Origin: Gaiella occulta | GTDB taxonomy: Bacteria; Actinomycetota; Thermoleophilia; Gaiellales; Gaiellaceae | Length of the DNA: 64,000 nt | Assembly: GCF_003351045.1 (NCBI RefSeq) | Contig: NZ_QQZY01000005.1 | Span: 1 to 64,000 of the forward strand | Direction of reading: 5' to 3' | Shown: piece by piece, positions 1,354-8,796 of the stretch | Numbering within the stretch: the first letter of the stretch is position 1 | Layout: the number at the start of each line of letters is the position of its first letter | Notes under the pieces: generated by a model | What the model saw: only the letters and a program-made list of their open reading frames with translations | Database searches by the model: none | Told to the model about the DNA's origin: nothing | Position numbers and translations under genes: made by a program

Positions 1354-1866
1354 TCATGGGCGTACGTTGTTGTCCTCGAGTTCCTTGCGGATCCGAGTGA
1401 TGCCGCGGGCAAATCGCATCTTGCAGGTAGCTTCGCTCTGGCCGATGAGCTCGGCGATCTCGGCGAACGGCAGCCCGCGGAGGAGGCGAAGCACGACGAC
1501 GGTTCGCTGCTCTTCGGATAGATGTGCGATGGCCGTCTCGAGCGCTGCCCGCACGTTCGGGCCGTACTCGTCGGTTGAGTGGAGTGTGTCGACATTCCAT
1601 GGTGCTGCTGCCTGGGGCGTCCGGCTGCGCCGCCGTATCTCATCGGCCATCCTTCGGTATGCGACCGTGTACAGCCAGGCCAGCATCGAGTCAGGAGGCG
1701 TGGCGTCGCCTGCGAATGCTTCGACAGCGTCGGCGAACACGCGCTGGGTCAGATCCTCTGCGTCCGCGGGGCTGCCTGTTCGACGCATGAAGAAGCGGTA
1801 GATCCGCAGGCGGTACTGACGGTACGCGCGCTCGGCGAGGGTCGAGCGCTTCGGAGGGTGGGTCAT
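1354..1866 (-). CDS. ECF-type RNA polymerase sigma factor
   Basis: The 170-residue protein starts at the ATG at 1866 (MTHPPKRSTLAERAYRQY). Region 2 is seen in YRFFMRRTGSPADAEDLTQ with the conserved DAEDLTQ core, and region 4 in LSEEQRTVVVLRLLRGLPFAEIAELIG followed by a helix-turn-helix. The length fits a minimal ECF factor with no extra domain. It is transcribed divergently from the first small exported protein. It is the only regulator next to four operons that share a GTTAC-N16-CGA promoter, so it is the obvious candidate to drive them. No zinc-finger anti-sigma gene is adjacent; the membrane protein at 4767-5507 may play that role. No GTTAC motif faces the sigma gene itself, so autoregulation is not evident. 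Confidence 0.85.
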   Translation of the reverse strand: MTHPPKRSTLAERAYRQYRLRIYRFFMRRTGSPADAEDLTQRVFADAVEAFAGDATPPDSMLAWLYTVAYRRMADEIRRRSRTPQAAAPWNVDTLHSTDEYGPNVRAALETAIAHLSEEQRTVVVLRLLRGLPFAEIAELIGQSEATCKMRFARGITRIRKELEDNNVRP

Positions 1867-1992
1867 CGAGTGCTCACGGCAGAAGTCAGACGGCGACCCT
1901 AGCCTGGCACGGACGCGTGCGAACTGGAAGCGGAGAGCACCGTTACTTTTCCGACGCCAACGCGACTTCTCTTCCCGGCAGCCGTCAGCGGA
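1863..1992 (+). repeat. 130-bp direct repeat, copy 1 (promoter region)
   Basis: This intergenic segment between the sigma gene and the first exported protein recurs at 3421-3550 with four visible mismatches in 130 bases. It contains the GTTAC-N16-CGA promoter and reaches the start codon of the sigma gene. Confidence 0.95.
1942..1965 (+). promoter_or_regulatory. Predicted ECF-type promoter P1 (GTTAC-N16-CGA)
   Basis: GTTAC at 1942-1946, 16 bases, then CGA at 1963-1965, 46 bases before the start codon at 2011. Identical spacing occurs at 3500, 5556 and, on the other strand, 8274. Confidence 0.6.
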
Positions 1993-2010
1993 CAACGTAG
2001 AGAGGAAGGT

Positions 2011-2370
2011 ATGCGACCCACGGTTACCTCAAGCAGGCTAATCCTCATAGTCGCAGTGTTAGGCGCCGGAATTCTTGCAGGAAGCGCGGCTGCTGCGACT
2101 TACGAGCGGTTCTTGCCGGAGGGTTCCTACTCATATGGCACCAGTGCAAGCTCAAGCTACGGGTCGTCCTGGATCAAAGCGAACTCCCACACCACGACAG
2201 GGGTTGACAGAACGATCACGCTGATCGACAACGTTTCCTACTCATGGCACGACACTCATCGCAGCACCGCGCCTGACGTGTGGGCGTCGTGGAACAGCTC
2301 AACGGTGAAGAAGGGGTACTGCCTGCTGCACACAAGTGGGACGGTCGCATGCACCGTCTTCGACTACTGA
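2011..2370 (+). CDS. Small exported protein 1 of the ECF-linked cluster
   Basis: A 119-residue protein with a classical Sec signal: short basic N-terminus, hydrophobic run about residues 9-27, and an Ala-rich cleavage region (SAAAATY). The mature part of ~90 residues is rich in Ser, Tyr, Trp and Thr and ends in a two-cysteine loop (KKGYCLLHTSGTVACTVFDY). A disulfide there is likely. I do not recognise the family. It is followed 16 bases later by a membrane-anchored partner, and the same pairing repeats at 3577/3966, 5626/6024 and 8042/7578. Such small aromatic, disulfide-containing exports could be a toxin or bacteriocin-like peptide, an adhesin or a structural coat component; nothing in the sequence decides. 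Confidence 0.75.
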   Translation: MRPTVTSSRLILIVAVLGAGILAGSAAAATYERFLPEGSYSYGTSASSSYGSSWIKANSHTTTGVDRTITLIDNVSYSWHDTHRSTAPDVWASWNSSTVKKGYCLLHTSGTVACTVFDY

Positions 2371-2386
2371 CCAGGAGGTGCTGGAG

Positions 2387-2989
2387 GTGACCAAGAATCG
2401 TCTCGTCCTCGTCGCGTCTCTCGTCGTCGCGATTGCTGTTGCGGGGGTTGCTATCGCCAGCGGCCGATCGCTCCTCTTCCCGACAGACGCACAGCAGGGT
2501 GCGCAGCTGCAAGAACTCGCTGCCAACGGTCTCGGTCAGAAGGCCGTCGGCTTTCCGAGTCAAATCGGTCGTCCCGATCTGGCCGTTTATGTCGCGCGAC
2601 TCTCGGACGGATCGATTTGCGTGAGCGACGCGCAACTCAATGGCATCGCCTCTGGTGGCGCCTGCGGTCCGGCTGATTCGCCGCTTGGTGGGAAGCCGTT
2701 CATGGCCGTGTTTGCTTCCGCTGGTGGAGCGACAGGTGCGTCGTTGAAAGAGGCCCGGCTTTACGGCCTCGCCGATAGCTCGGTCGCGCAACTCAAAGCG
2801 GAAATGAGCGACGGCTCAACTGTTGTACTACCGCTTTTTGCGTCGAAGAGCGCGGATGTCCCTTATCGTGTCTTCGCTTACCGTGTCTCTCGGGCGGATC
2901 TCGCCGCGGGCGTTACACCGGTCACGGTTGTCGCCCATGACACTGCTGGCGGCGAGATCGCTCGACAAGAAACCGGGGTTGCAGGCTGA
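2387..2989 (+). CDS. Membrane-anchored partner protein 1 (two-Cys extracytoplasmic domain)
   Basis: A 200-residue protein starting at GTG 2387 behind an AGGAGG-type ribosome site. An N-terminal membrane segment (about residues 6-26, VLVASLVVAIAVAGVAIASG) is followed by an extracytoplasmic domain. A cysteine pair lies mid-protein (SICVSDAQL...GGACG), then a beta-rich C-terminal part with RLYGLADSSV and a D-G turn. The same architecture is seen in four other proteins of this locus: hydrophobic anchor, C-x(9-20)-C, a 'V.GLA' strand, and a final D-G hairpin. Sequence identity among them is low. Function unknown; co-transcription with the small export suggests maturation, anchoring or immunity. 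Confidence 0.7.
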   Translation: MTKNRLVLVASLVVAIAVAGVAIASGRSLLFPTDAQQGAQLQELAANGLGQKAVGFPSQIGRPDLAVYVARLSDGSICVSDAQLNGIASGGACGPADSPLGGKPFMAVFASAGGATGASLKEARLYGLADSSVAQLKAEMSDGSTVVLPLFASKSADVPYRVFAYRVSRADLAAGVTPVTVVAHDTAGGEIARQETGVAG

Positions 2990-2998
2990 TCCACGCAG

Positions 2999-3041
2999 AG
3001 AGCGCTCACGGGTGCCGGATGAGTTGACCCGTGAGCGCTCT
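2999..3041 (+). terminator. Stem-loop terminator after the first cassette
   Basis: A perfect 15-bp stem (AGAGCGCTCACGGGT at 2999-3013, complement at 3027-3041) with a 13-base loop begins ten bases after the stop codon at 2989. No U-tract follows. Confidence 0.75.
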
Positions 3042-3042
3042 G

Positions 3043-3074
3043 CGCCCTTCCGTCGTCGCGCCCTTCCGTCGTCG
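3043..3074 (+). repeat. Perfect 16-bp tandem duplication
   Basis: CGCCCTTCCGTCGTCG occurs twice in direct succession immediately after the terminator stem. Confidence 0.95.
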
Positions 3075-3420
3075 ACTTGGGAAGCCAGGTCAAGGCGAGG
3101 GACCTAGTGCACCGTCTCGGTCTCATTTGGTCGTTTGCGTCAAGAGTGCCGCGGCCGCGGCTCCTCTTCTCCGAGAATCTTTCCGCCGGTCTGGTCCAGA
3201 TGAAACGGTTTGGGGGTTGTCGTTGGTGGCTTTCAGGTCGGGCACGATCCCGCGATCAGGTCGGGCACGATCAGGTCGGGCACGGGGTGGAAGATGTCGT
3301 GTCAGATCGCTTTGCCAGTGAGCTTGCCGGAGGAACGGCTCGCCGAGGTTGAGCCACAGCTCGAGGTCGGCGTGAAGCGGGACAATTGGACGACGGCGCT
3401 GCTCGCGTCCAACAGGGTCG
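3075..3420 (+). other. Non-coding stretch with three short direct repeats
   Basis: No convincing gene. TCAGGTCGGGCACG occurs three times, at 3233-3246, 3256-3269 and 3271-3284. Open frames here lack start signals and family resemblance. A minus-strand frame around 3310-3400 (DLELWLNLGEPF...) looks protein-like but was not identified and may be a remnant. Confidence 0.5.
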
Positions 3421-3550
3421 TCATCGAGTGCTCACGGCAGAGGTCAGACGGCGACCCTAGCCTGGCACGGACGCGTGCGAACTGGAAGCGGAGAGCCCCG
3501 TTACTTTTCCGACGCCAGCGCGACTTCTCTTCCCGACAGCCGTCAGCGGA
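3421..3550 (+). repeat. 130-bp direct repeat, copy 2 (promoter region)
   Basis: Second copy of 1863-1992, about 97% identical. Here it drives the second cassette, and the sigma gene that borders copy 1 is absent. The duplicated segment therefore carried the promoter only. Confidence 0.95.
3500..3523 (+). promoter_or_regulatory. Predicted ECF-type promoter P2 (GTTAC-N16-CGA)
   Basis: GTTAC at 3500-3504 and CGA at 3521-3523, about 54 bases before the start at 3577. It lies inside the duplicated 130-bp segment. Confidence 0.6.
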
Positions 3551-3576
3551 AACGGCGGAAACGAAGGAGGGCGCGT

Positions 3577-3954
3577 GTGCGTTCCATCGATGTGACGCAA
3601 TGGACCCGGGGAGGCCTGCGCAGACTCGCTCTCGTAGCTGCCTGCCTATTCCTCGTCGTTCTGCCACCCGCAGTCGCTCTGGCGGCGCAGATCACGTACG
3701 CCTCCGGTACGAACGGTGTTGGCGGCACGTTCGCCACGAGCGGCGAGGCGGTACGCGACTACAACCAGGTGTGGCACCAGGCGGGCCGCTCCTGGTGGGT
3801 CTGGTATCTGCATGGCTCCAGTCAAACCGGTCTGGTCTTCAACAGCTCGAACCCGACGAAGTACAACGGCGGCAGCGGCACGGTCGCCTACGCGAAATGC
3901 TCGAACAGCGACGACAACTCCGGCGTGACCTGGACATGCCAGACAACAAACTAG
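3577..3954 (+). CDS. Small exported protein 2 of the ECF-linked cluster
   Basis: A 125-residue protein, GTG start at 3577 behind AAGGAGG. The signal peptide is slightly longer than in protein 1 (basic ~15 residues, hydrophobic LALVAACLFLVVLPPAVALA, cut after ALA). The mature part is rich in Gly, Ser, Trp and Tyr (RSWWVWYLHGSS, FNSSNPTKYNGGSG) and ends with two cysteines ten residues apart (KCSNSDDNSGVTWTCQ). It shares size, export signal, composition and C-terminal Cys pair with protein 1 but little linear identity. It is followed 11 bases later by partner 2. No family recognised. Confidence 0.75.
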   Translation: MRSIDVTQWTRGGLRRLALVAACLFLVVLPPAVALAAQITYASGTNGVGGTFATSGEAVRDYNQVWHQAGRSWWVWYLHGSSQTGLVFNSSNPTKYNGGSGTVAYAKCSNSDDNSGVTWTCQTTN

Positions 3955-3965
3955 GAGGCGACGCG

Positions 3966-4619
3966 GTGAAGAATCCGTTTTCACGCTCGGCATCGTTCGT
4001 GCTCGGTGGCTCCGCGGCAATCGGCGCCATGCTCGCGGTGAGTGTCGTCGCATCCGCCGGAGGAGGCTTCGACGTGGAAACCGAAGCTGCAGCCCCGGCT
4101 CGCGCAGCCGACGTGCTTCCGAGTTTCAGCCGTGCTCGTACTGCAGACGACGCGTTGCCCGCCTCGGCGCAGGCAGGCCTCGCCCGTCTCCTCGCTGGTG
4201 GGGCACCAAGCGAAGCGCTCAACCCTGGAACGCCGCTTCCCACCGACAGTCGCAAGACAATCAGTGCCTACGGGCAGACGACCTACCTCGTCCCGACCGA
4301 CAAACAACAGGCGTGCTACGTGGTGAGCCCGTCGGGCGACGCCGGGTGCACGGACGGGTCGGCGATCGCACGAGACGGCCTCGAATGGGGTCTCGTTGAC
4401 CCGGATGGCTTCGATGCCGGTGCGCCCACGGTCGTGCACGGGCTAACAGGGGAAGGCGTCACAGGTGTTAGCGTCGCAACCGGCGCGACATCTCACCCGG
4501 CGATCGTGCGGGACGGTGCCTTCTACCTCGAGCTCCAGTCGAAGCCGACCGCGATCACCGTGCGCTTCGTGGACGGATCCGATAAGGAGTGGACCATTCC
4601 GGCGCCTCCGGCGCCGTAA
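3966..4619 (+). CDS. Membrane-anchored partner protein 2
   Basis: A 217-residue protein, GTG start at 3966, with SD GGAGGCGACGCG overlapping the end of the small export. A hydrophobic segment at about residues 11-30 acts as anchor or uncleaved signal. A linker rich in Ala and Pro follows, then the extracytoplasmic domain with the cysteine pair ACYVVSPSGDAGC, a VVHGLTGEGV strand, and a terminal strand-turn with DGSDKEW ending IPAPPAP. The same tail (IPAPPRP) ends the protein at 4767-5507, which supports common descent. Function unknown. Confidence 0.7.
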   Translation: MKNPFSRSASFVLGGSAAIGAMLAVSVVASAGGGFDVETEAAAPARAADVLPSFSRARTADDALPASAQAGLARLLAGGAPSEALNPGTPLPTDSRKTISAYGQTTYLVPTDKQQACYVVSPSGDAGCTDGSAIARDGLEWGLVDPDGFDAGAPTVVHGLTGEGVTGVSVATGATSHPAIVRDGAFYLELQSKPTAITVRFVDGSDKEWTIPAPPAP

Positions 4620-4633
4620 CCGCCAGGGCATTC

Positions 4634-4669
4634 CCGTCGGGGCTCTGCGGTTTCGCTCAGCCCCGACGG
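4634..4669 (+). terminator. Stem-loop terminator after the second cassette
   Basis: An 11-bp perfect stem (CCGTCGGGGCT at 4634-4644, complement at 4659-4669) with a 14-base loop lies 15 bases after the stop codon. Confidence 0.75.
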
Positions 4670-4766
4670 CTGCCTCAGCGGGATCGACGTCCTCCCTTCG
4701 GAAGTTCGCGGGGGTAACTGGTTCCCGTTGTGCCTGCCGCGGCGAGAGACATAGTGTGGGAACACC

Positions 4767-5507
4767 ATGGACGAGGAACCGGTTAGCGTCTTCTCCAATG
4801 CCGAGATCGCCGAGGCGCTTGGCAACGATCCGGAGTTGCTCGCGATCGCCGACGCTATCGCGCAGACGCGCCCAGAGCCTGCTGGACAGACACATTGGCG
4901 CCGCACAGTCGTGCTTCTTGCCGCTGCCGTGGCGGCTGCCATCGTCGTTCTGCCTGCGCTCGCGTTCACGAACGTCATTCCCGGCGTCTCGGATTGGTTT
5001 TCCAGCCCCAAAGCGCCGAGACAGATCGTCCTCAGATTCGAAAGCCTGGGGCGGGGCGCACCGACGGGCATGGACCCCAGCGTCGTGGCTTCGGAGGCGC
5101 GAACACTCATGACGATCAGGTTGGCTGACGGCACCTCCGCCCGTCTTTTCATTGCGCCGACGCGTCAAGGTGGCTTCTGCCTCGAGATCGAGGGCCTCGG
5201 GGGGGGATGCGATGCGGCCAGAGAGATCATGTTCGGCGCCGGCTTCGCAGCGAAACGCTTCCCTCAGGGCCCGGCAGTCGTCTACGGCAGCGCCCTGACA
5301 AACAAGGCGGTAGAGGCGGAAATCCGCCCGGCCAAGGGTCAGACCCAGCGTGTCGCCCTGACCCGAGTCTCGGCTCCCATCGACGCAGGCTTCTTCGTCG
5401 TCGACCTCCCCGAGTCCGCGAACGCGTTCCCGATTCAGGTGAGCCTGCTCGACGACGACGGGAACGCGGTGGGCACGAAGACGATTCCGGCGCCGCCACG
5501 GCCGTGA
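4767..5507 (+). CDS. Single-pass membrane protein, partner family, with cytoplasmic N-terminus (candidate anti-sigma)
   Basis: A 246-residue protein. Unlike its paralogues it has a ~46-residue hydrophilic, acidic N-terminal segment (MDEEPVSVFSNAEIAEALGN) before one membrane span (about 47-68, VVLLAAAVAAAIVVLPALAF). The outside domain has the shared cysteine pair GFCLEIEGLGGGC, a VVYGSALTNKAV strand and a D-D-D-G turn, and ends IPAPPRP like partner 2. It has no small export next to it and no GTTAC promoter. A short cytoplasmic part tethered to a sensing domain is the layout of anti-sigma factors, so it may restrain the sigma factor at 1354-1866; this is inference from topology only. Confidence 0.65.
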   Translation: MDEEPVSVFSNAEIAEALGNDPELLAIADAIAQTRPEPAGQTHWRRTVVLLAAAVAAAIVVLPALAFTNVIPGVSDWFSSPKAPRQIVLRFESLGRGAPTGMDPSVVASEARTLMTIRLADGTSARLFIAPTRQGGFCLEIEGLGGGCDAAREIMFGAGFAAKRFPQGPAVVYGSALTNKAVEAEIRPAKGQTQRVALTRVSAPIDAGFFVVDLPESANAFPIQVSLLDDDGNAVGTKTIPAPPRP

Positions 5508-5555
5508 CAGCATCGCGACCTCCCGCGTTTGCGGCCAGCTGTGCCCGTCGCGGGC

Positions 5556-5579
5556 GTTACTTTCAGGCGTCTCGTGCGA
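5556..5579 (+). promoter_or_regulatory. Predicted ECF-type promoter P3 (GTTAC-N16-CGA)
   Basis: GTTAC at 5556-5560 and CGA at 5577-5579, 47 bases before the start at 5626. The flanking sequence differs from P1/P2, so the motif is conserved independently of the 130-bp repeat. Confidence 0.6.
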
Positions 5580-5625
5580 AATACCGGTAAGAACGGGTCC
5601 TCGTACGACTCGGGAGGAGGATTGA

Positions 5626-6009
5626 ATGAGGTATCGAGTCGCAATAGGAACGACGGTCGTCGCGCTGATCATCGCGCCAGTCTCGGCCGCAGCGACCTGG
5701 AGTTGGGGCTTCAACTACCTGGGCAACTCGTCGAGCAATGGCAACTGTATGGCGCCAGCGGTCGCCGTGCCGGGCGCCGTCTGCAGTGGGTGGAACTACT
5801 GGAACTCGAACTACATGGACAAGCGGGGTGGGGGATACGTTTACCTGGGCTGGCAAAAAGACGCGTACACGTCTGGGTTCATTGGCGTCTCGGGCGTCAC
5901 CCAGGTTGCGACAGTGCCGAGCACCGTTGGGCTGGGTGGCTACCTGAAGTCCGCGGCCGAGTACGTCAGCGGCGCGGCGTCCTATCTCCAAACCCAGGCG
6001 TACTCCTGA
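5626..6009 (+). CDS. Small exported protein 3 of the ECF-linked cluster
   Basis: A 127-residue protein with ATG preceded by GGGAGGAGG. Signal peptide at residues 1-23 (VAIGTTVVALIIAPVSAAA). The mature protein is aromatic- and Asn-rich (TWSWGFNYLGNSSSNGNC, WNYWNSNYMDKRGGGYVYLG). It has two cysteines 14 residues apart near its N-terminal half rather than at the C-terminus. The C-terminal third is Ala/Ser/Tyr-rich. It precedes partner 3 by 14 bases. Similar in size and composition to the other three exports; family not recognised. Confidence 0.75.
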   Translation: MRYRVAIGTTVVALIIAPVSAAATWSWGFNYLGNSSSNGNCMAPAVAVPGAVCSGWNYWNSNYMDKRGGGYVYLGWQKDAYTSGFIGVSGVTQVATVPSTVGLGGYLKSAAEYVSGAASYLQTQAYS

Positions 6010-6023
6010 GGAGGGACACAATC

Positions 6024-6641
6024 ATGCGCAATCGGCTCTGGCGTGTGGCAGCTGGTCTGGCGATCGTCGTAGGCGTTGGGTTGTTCGCTCTTGTGGCAGC
6101 AGCACGCGAGGACGGTGCAGGGCTCGCAATCGAGACCTGGGCCGTCGGTAGCGACGGGACTCCGGTCGAAGTCGAGGGCCAAGCTGCTGAGCTGCTAGGG
6201 CGATTCGGTGGCCCGGGCCTGGACGCGCTCCGAGGCGTCTCGCTGATGAAATCTGTAGGTACGAACGGCGTGTTTCGAATTGCGACGACATCCGGTAAGT
6301 CGTGCGCCGCCGTCGGCCAATTCGAGGCTGGACGCGTGACCCAGCTCGGGATCGTGCAATGCCCGATCGATCCGAGCTTTCCGTCCGCGGAGCGTCCCGC
6401 GCTTGACCTCTCGGTGATCACGATCGCGAAGGGCGCTCCACGCGGGATCACGAGAGTTCAGGGCCTCGCGGCCGACGGTGTCGTCTCGATCGGCCTGGTC
6501 GACGCGACCGGCGCGATCGCCGCTGAGGTTCCGACCGCAGGAAACGCCTACCTCCTCGAGGATGTGCCGCCTGGAATTGTAGGTCTCGTCGCTCTGGACA
6601 AGGCGGGTACGGCAGTGCCGATTCAGGGCTCGCAGACGTGA
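6024..6641 (+). CDS. Membrane-anchored partner protein 3
   Basis: A 205-residue protein with a GAGGAGGG ribosome site overlapping the upstream stop. A hydrophobic anchor spans about residues 8-28. The outside domain contains the cysteine pair SCAAVGQFEAGRVTQLGIVQC, then a strand RVQGLAADGVVSIGLVDATG and a final turn ALDKAGTAV. The order of elements matches the other partners. Function unknown; likely works with the small exported protein encoded just upstream. Confidence 0.7.
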   Translation: MRNRLWRVAAGLAIVVGVGLFALVAAAREDGAGLAIETWAVGSDGTPVEVEGQAAELLGRFGGPGLDALRGVSLMKSVGTNGVFRIATTSGKSCAAVGQFEAGRVTQLGIVQCPIDPSFPSAERPALDLSVITIAKGAPRGITRVQGLAADGVVSIGLVDATGAIAAEVPTAGNAYLLEDVPPGIVGLVALDKAGTAVPIQGSQT

Positions 6642-6813
6642 GCGCAAGAAGGGGGAGCCGCCATGGCCAGTTGCGATCGTGCCGTCTACCGCTTTGCCAG
6701 GCTCTCGTCGCCTTCCTCCTGGCGGATGTCGATCTCCTTGTCGAGCAGTCCGGCTCGTTTCCCGTGAGATCGCAGCTTCGTTCCCGCGATCCGCCTCGAA
6801 CTCGCGTAGTTCA

Positions 6814-6852
6814 GGATCCGGAGGCGTGAAACGTCCCCACCCCTCCGGATCC
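6814..6852. terminator. Bidirectional stem-loop between convergent cassettes
   Basis: A perfect 11-bp stem (GGATCCGGAGG at 6814-6824, complement at 6842-6852) with a 17-base loop sits between the stop of partner 3 (plus strand) and the stop of partner 4 (minus strand). It can serve both. Confidence 0.65.
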
Positions 6853-6885
6853 ACTTTCGTCGTTGGCCGGCTTCCATAGGCGGCG

Positions 6886-7578
6886 CTACTGCGGCCGGGT
6901 CGCAGCGATCAGCTTCTCCAGATCCTGACGTCCGACCTCCGTCCCGCTTCTGTCGTAAGCAACAAGGAAGTATGGGCCGCCTGGGGCGAGCCTCCCGGAA
7001 GCGCCGGACGGGGCGAGCCCGCCGACGAAATAGCCGTGCGAGAGCGCGACCGGCATCGCTCCTGCCGACGACACGACCGCGAGGCCGGCGACGCGCGCGA
7101 CGTCGACACGACCTTCGATGGTCACCTCGTAGCCGTAGGCCCCTTCCGACGTCTTCGCCCAGTCGATGTTCGTACTGACTGGACTGTCCTTGTTCATCCA
7201 CTTCTGCGACGGCGGCGAATCGCTGCACTCCCCGGCGCCGGTGATCGTGGTCGGCACTCCCGCTGTCGCCGCCGACTTGTCGAGGAAGACGCAGTGGCCA
7301 CCGCCTGCGTTCGGCGCCTGCCACACCGCGAGCTCCTGGCCGGACGGCAGCTTCGCCGAGACCAGCTTCGAGGCGCGGCTCAGATCCGGCACCGACGACG
7401 GCTGAGCGGTCGGACCCTTCCCAGCGTAGCCGGCGAAGCCGGGGATGTCCGCCAGCTTCCCGGTCACGGCGAGCGCCGGCGCGGCAAGTGCCGCGACGAC
7501 GGTCGCCATGAGGAAGCCCCGTCCAAGCGTCATCCGCCGGTGTCGTGTCGTGCTTTCCCAGCGGCCATGATTGTCCAT
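6886..7578 (-). CDS. Membrane-anchored partner protein 4
   Basis: A 230-residue protein, ATG at 7578 behind AAGGAGGATGAC. A 16-residue basic cytoplasmic N-terminus precedes the hydrophobic segment (about 17-38, LGRGFLMATVVAALAAPALA). The outside domain has the cysteine pair HCVFLDKSAATAG...GEC, VEGRV/VARVAGLAVVSS strands and a terminal D-R-S-G turn. It follows small exported protein 4 by about 50 bases on the minus strand. It is the same two-gene layout in opposite orientation, so the locus has at least two transcription directions. Function unknown. Confidence 0.7.
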   Translation of the reverse strand: MDNHGRWESTTRHRRMTLGRGFLMATVVAALAAPALAVTGKLADIPGFAGYAGKGPTAQPSSVPDLSRASKLVSAKLPSGQELAVWQAPNAGGGHCVFLDKSAATAGVPTTITGAGECSDSPPSQKWMNKDSPVSTNIDWAKTSEGAYGYEVTIEGRVDVARVAGLAVVSSAGAMPVALSHGYFVGGLAPSGASGRLAPGGPYFLVAYDRSGTEVGRQDLEKLIAATRPQ

Positions 7579-7628
7579 GTCATCCTCCTTCAGTTCGCAG
7601 TTTGGGACGTCGAGCTAGCGTCCGGCGC

Positions 7629-8042
7629 CTAGCAGGGCGTCGGAGAGCCGTACTCGCCGGAGGTGTCGCTCCTCCCGGTACCACCCACGTTGATGTAGTA
7701 GAAGTTGTGGATGTACGCACCGGTACAGGTCGCAAGCGGCGTCCAGCGATCCCCCGATCCGGACTGATCCTGCGCCGTGTGAAGCGTCTCGGCGAGGGCG
7801 GTTCCCGCCCGGTTCACGAGACGCACGTCGTAGGCCCACATCGGGGCTCCCGCATCACAGGCGGTGTGGCCGCCGCCCTTGCTCTGGTGCGAAACCGGAA
7901 CCGGGATCCAGGTCGACGGCGTGCAGGTGGCCAGACTCCGAGCGTTGCCGCTCGCGGCGAGGACGGCGATCGCCACGAGGATGAGTCCTAGGGCGAGGAT
8001 CGGAATCACCCGCGATCCACGCCTTGAAGAGAGCGTCGGCAT
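7629..8042 (-). CDS. Small exported protein 4 of the ECF-linked cluster
   Basis: A 137-residue protein with a signal or anchor segment at about residues 12-32 (VIPILALGLILVAIAVLAAS). The mature part has four cysteines (LATCTPSTW, HTACDAG, ATCTGAY, and a C-terminal Cys as last residue), twice as many as its paralogues. Aromatic-rich stretches (HNFYYINVGG) recall the other exports. Start chosen at ATG 8042 behind AAGGGGA; upstream in-frame codons lack an SD. It is followed by partner 4. Confidence 0.7.
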   Translation of the reverse strand: MPTLSSRRGSRVIPILALGLILVAIAVLAASGNARSLATCTPSTWIPVPVSHQSKGGGHTACDAGAPMWAYDVRLVNRAGTALAETLHTAQDQSGSGDRWTPLATCTGAYIHNFYYINVGGTGRSDTSGEYGSPTPC

Positions 8043-8529
8043 TTCAAGTTCCCCTTCCGTTTGATGCCGAGCGTCGACGGCTGATGCGTTTCTGCACGGC
8101 CAGCTGGTTGCGGCACCAGCGAGGCCGGCAGTGTCAGCCAGTGCGTTCGAGCTGCGCGCCTGCAGGCCGGACAGGTCGTCTTCGCGCAAGACCGATGTTC
8201 CCCTACTGGCCCGCCTCCTTCCAATCGGAGTCCTGGTTCTCTTCAGCTAGTCGTTGAACCACGACAGAGGTAACGCAGGTCGCAGCCTGAACCGTGCGAC
8301 CCGTGCCGCCCCTCGCAGGTGCGGCCAGGCAGTCAGATCCGCATCTTCCACCGTAAGCTGAGCAAGATCGAGGGGCGGTCGAAGGATCCAGACGAATCAC
8401 AGCCGTGAGAGGAGAGGCTCTCGCAGCAGCCGCGTGAAGCTCAGGCGAGGATGACGCGCTCAGCCTCGTACACCACGAGCGGGGACGCTACTGTGGATCG
8501 AGGCGGCTGGAAGACCCCGCTCGGGTTCA
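8043..8529 (-). other. Intergenic region upstream of cassette 4
   Basis: No credible gene. It holds the predicted promoter P4 at 8251-8274, which would give cassette 4 an unusually long ~200-base leader. The rest shows no family resemblance on either strand. Confidence 0.5.
8251..8274 (-). promoter_or_regulatory. Predicted ECF-type promoter P4 (GTTAC-N16-CGA)
   Basis: On the minus strand GTTAC (8274-8270), 16 bases, CGA (8253-8251). Motif and spacing match P1-P3, but the distance to the start codon at 8042 is ~208 bases rather than ~50. Confidence 0.4.
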
Positions 8530-8796
8530 GGTGCGAGGCGCCTGATCGAGGCGCTGCCCTCACATCCGATCGTGAACGTGAAGGTGGCAGCCGAGCTCCT
8601 CGGCGGAAGCGAGGAACGAGCCCGCCTGGCTGTAGTCCGCCTCGAGCAAGCCGGTGTCCTGAGACAGGCGACGGTCGGCAAGCGCAATCGCGCCCGGGAG
8701 AGCGCCGGCCTGCTCGACCATCTCGATCGGCTCGAGCGCAGCTTCGGAGCTCTCGAACGTACGCCGCAACCGGTTCGACGAACGTCCCGCTCGTAG
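8530..8796 (+). pseudogene. Fic family protein, C-terminal remnant
   Basis: An open frame of about 88 codons ending TAG at 8796 reads ARRLIEALPSHPIVNVKVAA, then LLGGSEERARLAVVRLEQAG and VLRQATVGKRNRA. This is the winged-helix tail that follows the Fic (AMP-transferase) domain in many actinobacterial Fic proteins. The catalytic HxFx(D/E)GNGR region is missing and no start codon with an SD is present. The fragment is therefore a decayed or truncated gene; a stand-alone small DNA-binding protein from GTG 8572 is the alternative. Confidence 0.55.

Follow-up and report, generated by a model that had tools for sequence, protein, structure and literature searches.

In Streptomyces, the ECF sigma factor BldN and its membrane anti-sigma factor RsbN control several small exported proteins, the chaplins. 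The Gaiella occulta locus described here resembles this regulon in that small exported proteins are apparently under ECF control, although no chaplin or rodlin match was found and each small gene has its own partner gene. In the sigmaV system of Bacillus and Clostridioides, the anti-sigma factor RsiV has an ectodomain that is the receptor for lysozyme (PMC4183432). The likeness lies in the combination of an ECF sigma factor with a single-pass anti-sigma factor whose ectodomain receives a small extracellular protein; however, the ligand of RsiV is a host enzyme and not self-encoded, the sigmaV system lacks paired small-gene units, and RsiV carries DUF4163/DUF3298, which a Pfam scan found in none of the partners or anti-sigma factors examined here. 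Lactococcin 972 bacteriocins (PMC12345188) are likewise small Sec-exported proteins rich in aromatic residues, Ser and Gly, but they are accompanied by a seven-TM DUF1430 immunity protein and an ABC gene. Neither was found in the present units, which consist only of a small gene and a partner with a single hydrophobic segment. Membership in this bacteriocin family was rejected, as one small protein (P0004) gave a weak match to TIGR01653 (E 0.012, 15.8 bits vs. a cut-off of 32.1) and the model matched neither homologues nor the small1 family.

The window, i.e., the 64,000-nucleotide stretch analysed here, is the start of contig 5 in a 3.03-Mb genome. Between positions 1354 and 8275 it holds one ECF gene, four two-gene units, each with the gene of a small exported protein followed by that of a partner (~200 aa), and the gene of P0006, a protein of 246 aa with a cytoplasmic N-terminus (Table 1). 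A first-pass annotation had described one ECF gene with four two-gene units, and both the domains of the ECF sigma factor and the coordinates of the units were confirmed. Because the locus lies 1.35 kb from the contig end, further units may be missing. Pfam and NCBIfam searches with all locus proteins and their homologues gave no named match above cut-off except for the ECF sigma factor. As the annotation had supposed, the small proteins and partners are named by no Pfam, NCBIfam or solved-structure family, and the recurring small-protein/partner gene pair appears undescribed so far. Several other elements were observed nearby. An inverted repeat at 1106-1324, just downstream of the ECF gene (32-nt arms, 91% complementary, 155 nt between them, ends GGGGTCAGGTCTTCTTCGTTCC), is MITE-like and a possible agent of local rearrangement. 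At the contig edge, positions 149-1018 encode part of a larger protein, which has four Cys in a C-terminal segment and gave no significant match in the Pfam scan; an open stretch at ~8540-8795 (+) reads like the C-terminal helix-turn-helix of a Fic-type protein, giving the impression of a gene remnant.

Table 1 Features of the locus, with positions in the window and the basis of each assignment
Feature	Position	Strand	Basis
P0001, ECF sigma factor, 170 aa	1354..1866	-	Pfam Sigma70_r2 and r4_2 above cut-off
Promoter cassette copy 1, between the ECF and small1 start codons	1862..2009	+	148-nt direct repeat
CGTTAC-N16-CGA, unit 1	1941..1965	+	ECF-type promoter motif
small1 (P0002), exported, 119 aa	2011..2370	+	Homologues in 5 genomes of another genus
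partner1 (P0003), 200 aa	2387..2989	+	Partner-domain HMM E 3.8e-14, own type left out
Promoter cassette copy 2, before unit 2	3420..3567	+	148-nt direct repeat
CGTTAC-N16-CGA, unit 2	3499..3523	+	ECF-type promoter motif
small2 (P0004), exported, 125 aa	3577..3954	+	Homologues in G007 and G009
partner2 (P0005), 217 aa	3966..4619	+	Leave-type-out HMM E 1e-7
P0006, putative anti-sigma factor of P0001	4767..5507	+	N-terminus match, model, HMM
CGTTAC-N16-CGA, unit 3	5555..5579	+	ECF-type promoter motif
small3 (P0007), exported, 127 aa	5626..6009	+	Homologues in 5 genomes, each followed by partner3
partner3 (P0008), 205 aa	6024..6641	+	Leave-type-out HMM E 3e-12
partner4 (P0009), 230 aa	6886..7578	-	Leave-type-out HMM E 9e-13
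small4 (P0010), exported, 137 aa	7629..8042	-	Homologues in G009 (8e-21) and G003
CGTTAC-N16-CGA, unit 4	8251..8275	-	ECF-type promoter motif

P0001 has the sigma2 and sigma4 regions and lacks sigma3, the composition of an ECF sigma factor (Sigma70_r2, 1.7e-13, 50.5 bits; r4_2, 5.5e-13, 48.8 bits). P0006 combines ~43 cytoplasmic residues with two predicted short helices, one TM and a partner-type ectodomain. Its AlphaFold model (mean pLDDT 74) has helices at residues 11-17 and 22-34, the TM at 44-65 and a beta domain at 112-240, and thus displays the cytoplasmic helical N-terminus, single TM and ectodomain of an anti-sigma factor. The gene lies in the same locus as that of P0001 but not adjacent to it, and its association with a cognate ECF gene comes from the gene order of relatives. 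A P0006-type N-terminus is encoded directly after all ten ECF genes closest to P0001 (100-138 bits for the sigma factors, 15-36 bits for the N-termini) and after 0 of 24 other ECF genes that have a downstream gene on the same strand (maximum 10.2 bits). P0006 was the query with which many of these loci were gathered, and the unbiased direction of the comparison is that N-terminus matches adjoin P0001-like ECFs. Since this type of N-terminus follows all ten P0001-like ECFs and none of the 24 others, P0006 is likely the anti-sigma factor of P0001. The first-pass annotation had counted it as a fifth partner with a cytoplasmic N-terminus; N-terminus and partner domain were recovered, but the protein is better described as a putative anti-sigma factor than as a fifth copy of the unit.

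P0006 shares two short helices followed by a TM with the class II (CnrY-like, short two-helix) ECF anti-sigma factors (PMC7406223), a likeness of predicted architecture alone, whereas its ectodomain is unrelated to a named family. The cytoplasmic and TM part also resembles the NCBIfam CU044_5270 family (NF038083, E 0.011), although the score of 15.6 bits falls far short of the cut-off (100) and the ectodomain is unmatched. Foldseek comparison of P0006 with PDB and BFVD returned nothing at E ≤ 1e-3; its weak matches were Ig/FnIII-like and are taken only as an indication of a beta-sandwich-like fold. A profile match to Bap repeats (7dm0, 2.9e-7 for the whole chain, ~0.04 for single repeats) was set aside as weak and as one to an Ig-like repeat.

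An iterated HMM started from the P0006 ectodomain recruited P0009 (4e-23) and P0003 (2e-19), with P0005 and P0008 marginal. When homologues were included and each type was left out in turn, all partners were recovered at E values from 1e-7 to 3e-23 (the latter for P0006; others in Table 1), with the best outsider among 756 proteins at E 0.02. Judging from these profiles, all five partners (P0003, P0005, P0006, P0008 and P0009) share one domain, in line with the earlier view that they had diverged yet were related. Of the features ascribed to them, the two Cys are indeed invariant (13 of 13 aligned domains), but where a 'V.GLA' strand had been proposed there is a variable V/L-x-G position. The four stand-alone partners may be membrane-anchored, though the N-terminal hydrophobic segment might instead be a cleaved signal peptide.

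Within the same family of genomes, the partner domain, often in two tandem copies, also occurs in membrane proteins encoded just behind an ECF gene, with an overlap of a few bases between the two genes; by sequence it is homologous to the ectodomain of many ECF anti-sigma factors. In a tree of 72 domains, stand-alone partners were interspersed with anti-sigma ectodomains, with type 3 in a mixed group (97% SH-aLRT); a single clade for all stand-alone partners was rejected (p-AU 0.009), whereas a joint clade of types 1 and 3 was not (p 0.24). Partner4 has its nearest relative in genome G009, in the ectodomain of an ECF anti-sigma factor. In a shallow first look, the partner profile found exactly five copies in the genome of the window and few others, mostly weak, among 397 genomes of the phylum. 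The ectodomain family itself (L031, L032, L036, L038 and others) is unnamed, widespread in Gaiellales ECF anti-sigma factors and commonly present as two tandem copies; with its motif WVAPT(K/R)xGGFC it is a candidate new Pfam family.

The small exported proteins contain 13-19% aromatic residues plus His and 37-47% Ser/Gly/Thr/Asn at near-neutral charge. After the signal peptide, small1 has two Cys and small4 has four. No homology among the four was found with hhalign beyond the signal peptides, and small1-4 are, at the level of sequence, four types without detectable relationship to each other. As the partners form one family and the small proteins four types, the idea of the same two-gene unit occurring four times is proven for the partners and only architectural for the small proteins. 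An AlphaFold prediction of mature small1 alone (pLDDT 36) was discarded, and we make no fold claim for the small proteins. A search of P0004 against plasmids returned nothing.

Outside the window, 14 homologues of small1-4 (E < 2e-5) were found in 13 genomes of one family, most of them fragmented MAGs with gene calls from a simple codon model; named relatives from the protein search were Thermoleophilia and Gaiella MAGs. Every one of the 14 is followed, type for type, by the matching partner gene, directly in 13 cases and after an ECF gene in one (G009). Type 1 units lie between priA and def in five genomes of genus g19 (small1 homologues, E 7e-11 to 2e-16) and type 3 units next to purM in G112, G041, G121 and G122, with a further one in G102. 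Type 2 units occur in G009 and in G007, there divergent from an ECF/anti-sigma pair, and type 4 units in G009 and in G003, where the unit is cut by the contig end. The G009 locus has, in an apparent operon, small4, then an ECF gene, then the gene of an anti-sigma factor whose ectodomain is closest to partner4. Beyond its five genomes, small3 was not found in 399 genomes of the class, weaker matches being at chance level. Recurrence of the two-gene unit, which the annotation had anticipated, is thus borne out, but recurrence next to an ECF gene holds for only 2 of the 14 units. Units are patchily present within genera, at fixed chromosomal sites, and mean identity between relatives is 41-51% for small proteins and partners vs. 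73-79% for the flanking def and purN.

The motif CGTTAC-N16-CGA lies, with the same spacing throughout, upstream of each of the four small genes, as the proposal of a shared promoter had implied. It occurs four times in the window vs. 0.15-0.4 expected and five times in the whole 3-Mb genome, where a reversed control gave seven matches; it is absent before the P0001 and P0006 genes. The direct repeat that holds the first two sites is identical at 137 of 148 positions: the unit 2 promoter is a copy that arose by duplication of the 148-bp cassette reaching from the ECF start codon to the small1 start codon. This leaves three independent sites, and the duplication directly records the way in which a unit was added to the regulon. 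We infer that P0001 recognises these promoters, and by this route ECF control of the units, as first proposed, gains support. In relatives, a different element, TGTCY-N6-G-N2-ARTTGAC, which overlaps a sigma70-like -35, is found ahead of type 1, type 2 and type 3 units whose sites are unrelated (L176, L177, L179, L092, L135, L136 and L151, in each case before the small gene). Across 14 genomes it has eight matches, seven of them at units, and the control has none; the pattern was derived from the unit sites themselves, so that only its rarity elsewhere is informative. The eighth match (G122:C182) has no unit alongside and is attributed to chance. The element is absent from the genome of the window, where the ECF-type promoter takes its place. 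Because most units of relatives have a sigma70-like promoter and no adjoining ECF gene, ECF control is no inherent property of the unit.

The first-pass annotation had suggested toxin/immunity pairs, a surface polymer or an envelope-stress export system. Any of the three may hold, but the link to anti-sigma factors, which the annotation had missed, narrows them towards a secreted protein plus a cognate binder or sensor. We interpret the locus as an ECF-controlled module of secreted-protein/cognate-binder pairs, with binding inferred, and give this reading a probability of about 0.5. P0006 would hold P0001 at the membrane until a signal at its ectodomain releases the sigma factor, and free P0001 would then read the CGTTAC-N16-CGA promoters, so that the four pairs are made. 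Through its domain, each partner would bind its own small exported protein, as suggested by a fold shared with the anti-sigma sensor and by the strict type-for-type pairing, and P0006 could sense by binding of this kind, in the way that RsiV senses lysozyme.

In the specific form that we favour, still unproven and somewhat doubtful, the small protein would be a secreted bacteriocin-like antibacterial and the partner the immunity protein of the producer. We lean this way because the pairs show diversification and a patchy distribution over fixed sites, and because small proteins and partners alike are much less conserved than the genes that flank them. However, no toxin motif or dedicated exporter was recognised for the small proteins or units, and no bacteriocin family matched above cut-off. 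Bacteriocin systems commonly include orphan immunity genes, whereas stand-alone partners without a small gene were not seen here. Possibly, though with considerable reservation, the ectodomain of ECF anti-sigma factors has repeatedly become a separate membrane protein that serves one neighbouring small secreted protein. The same fold would then act as sensor, in the anti-sigma factor, and as immunity or capture protein, in a previously undescribed module of diversified secreted-protein/receptor pairs.

The composition of the small proteins, with their conserved Cys, would also suit structural proteins of a coat or wall, akin in function to the chaplins, for which the partners would be anchors or assembly factors and P0006 a monitor of assembly, and Streptomyces offers a precedent for ECF control of small exported surface proteins (BldN). 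A coat made of four small proteins unrelated in sequence, with a separate partner type for each, would be unusual, however; the units are patchy within genera, and the small proteins match no chaplin, rodlin or other surface family model in Pfam, which makes such an envelope module rather unlikely. The sensing domain common to partner and anti-sigma factor, together with the apparent operon in G009, could alternatively point to a self-sensing circuit without killing, in which the small proteins act as signals outside the cell, with the partners as co-receptors or as decoys that compete with P0006 for them. This appears unlikely, since most units have no adjoining ECF gene and hence no local output, and four unrelated signal forms are rarely needed in one cell.

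Most ECF/anti-sigma loci with a partner-type ectodomain have no small exported gene alongside, and for this reason the ectodomain may in general bind something else. The domain could then recognise a common envelope ligand, such as a wall polymer, a lipid intermediate or a mis-folded protein, with the gene pairs as co-regulated stress outputs. Its presence in the large exported products of the third gene in P0001-type ECF/anti-sigma operons would fit (L034, 9310-11052; L038, 4872-8231; L147, 2603-5698; those in L034 and L147 without a match in the Pfam scan), but the strict pairing of small and partner types across genera and chromosomal sites (14/14) makes a common ligand distinctly unlikely. 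A chance cluster of unrelated small exported and TM proteins, to which the low pairwise identity within the window might point, is refuted by the HMM homology of the partners, by the recurrence of every unit type and by the presence here of four of the five genomic promoter copies.

Few bacterial signalling systems are as common as ECF/anti-sigma pairs, and the ligands of most anti-sigma ectodomains are unknown. A sensor ectodomain family that is genetically tied to small exported proteins provides concrete ligand candidates for a whole class of anti-sigma factors, and the growth of a regulon by copying of a promoter cassette is shown here. The secreted-protein/binder pairs may further bring to light, in uncultured soil Actinobacteria, a new secreted antibacterial family together with its immunity partners.
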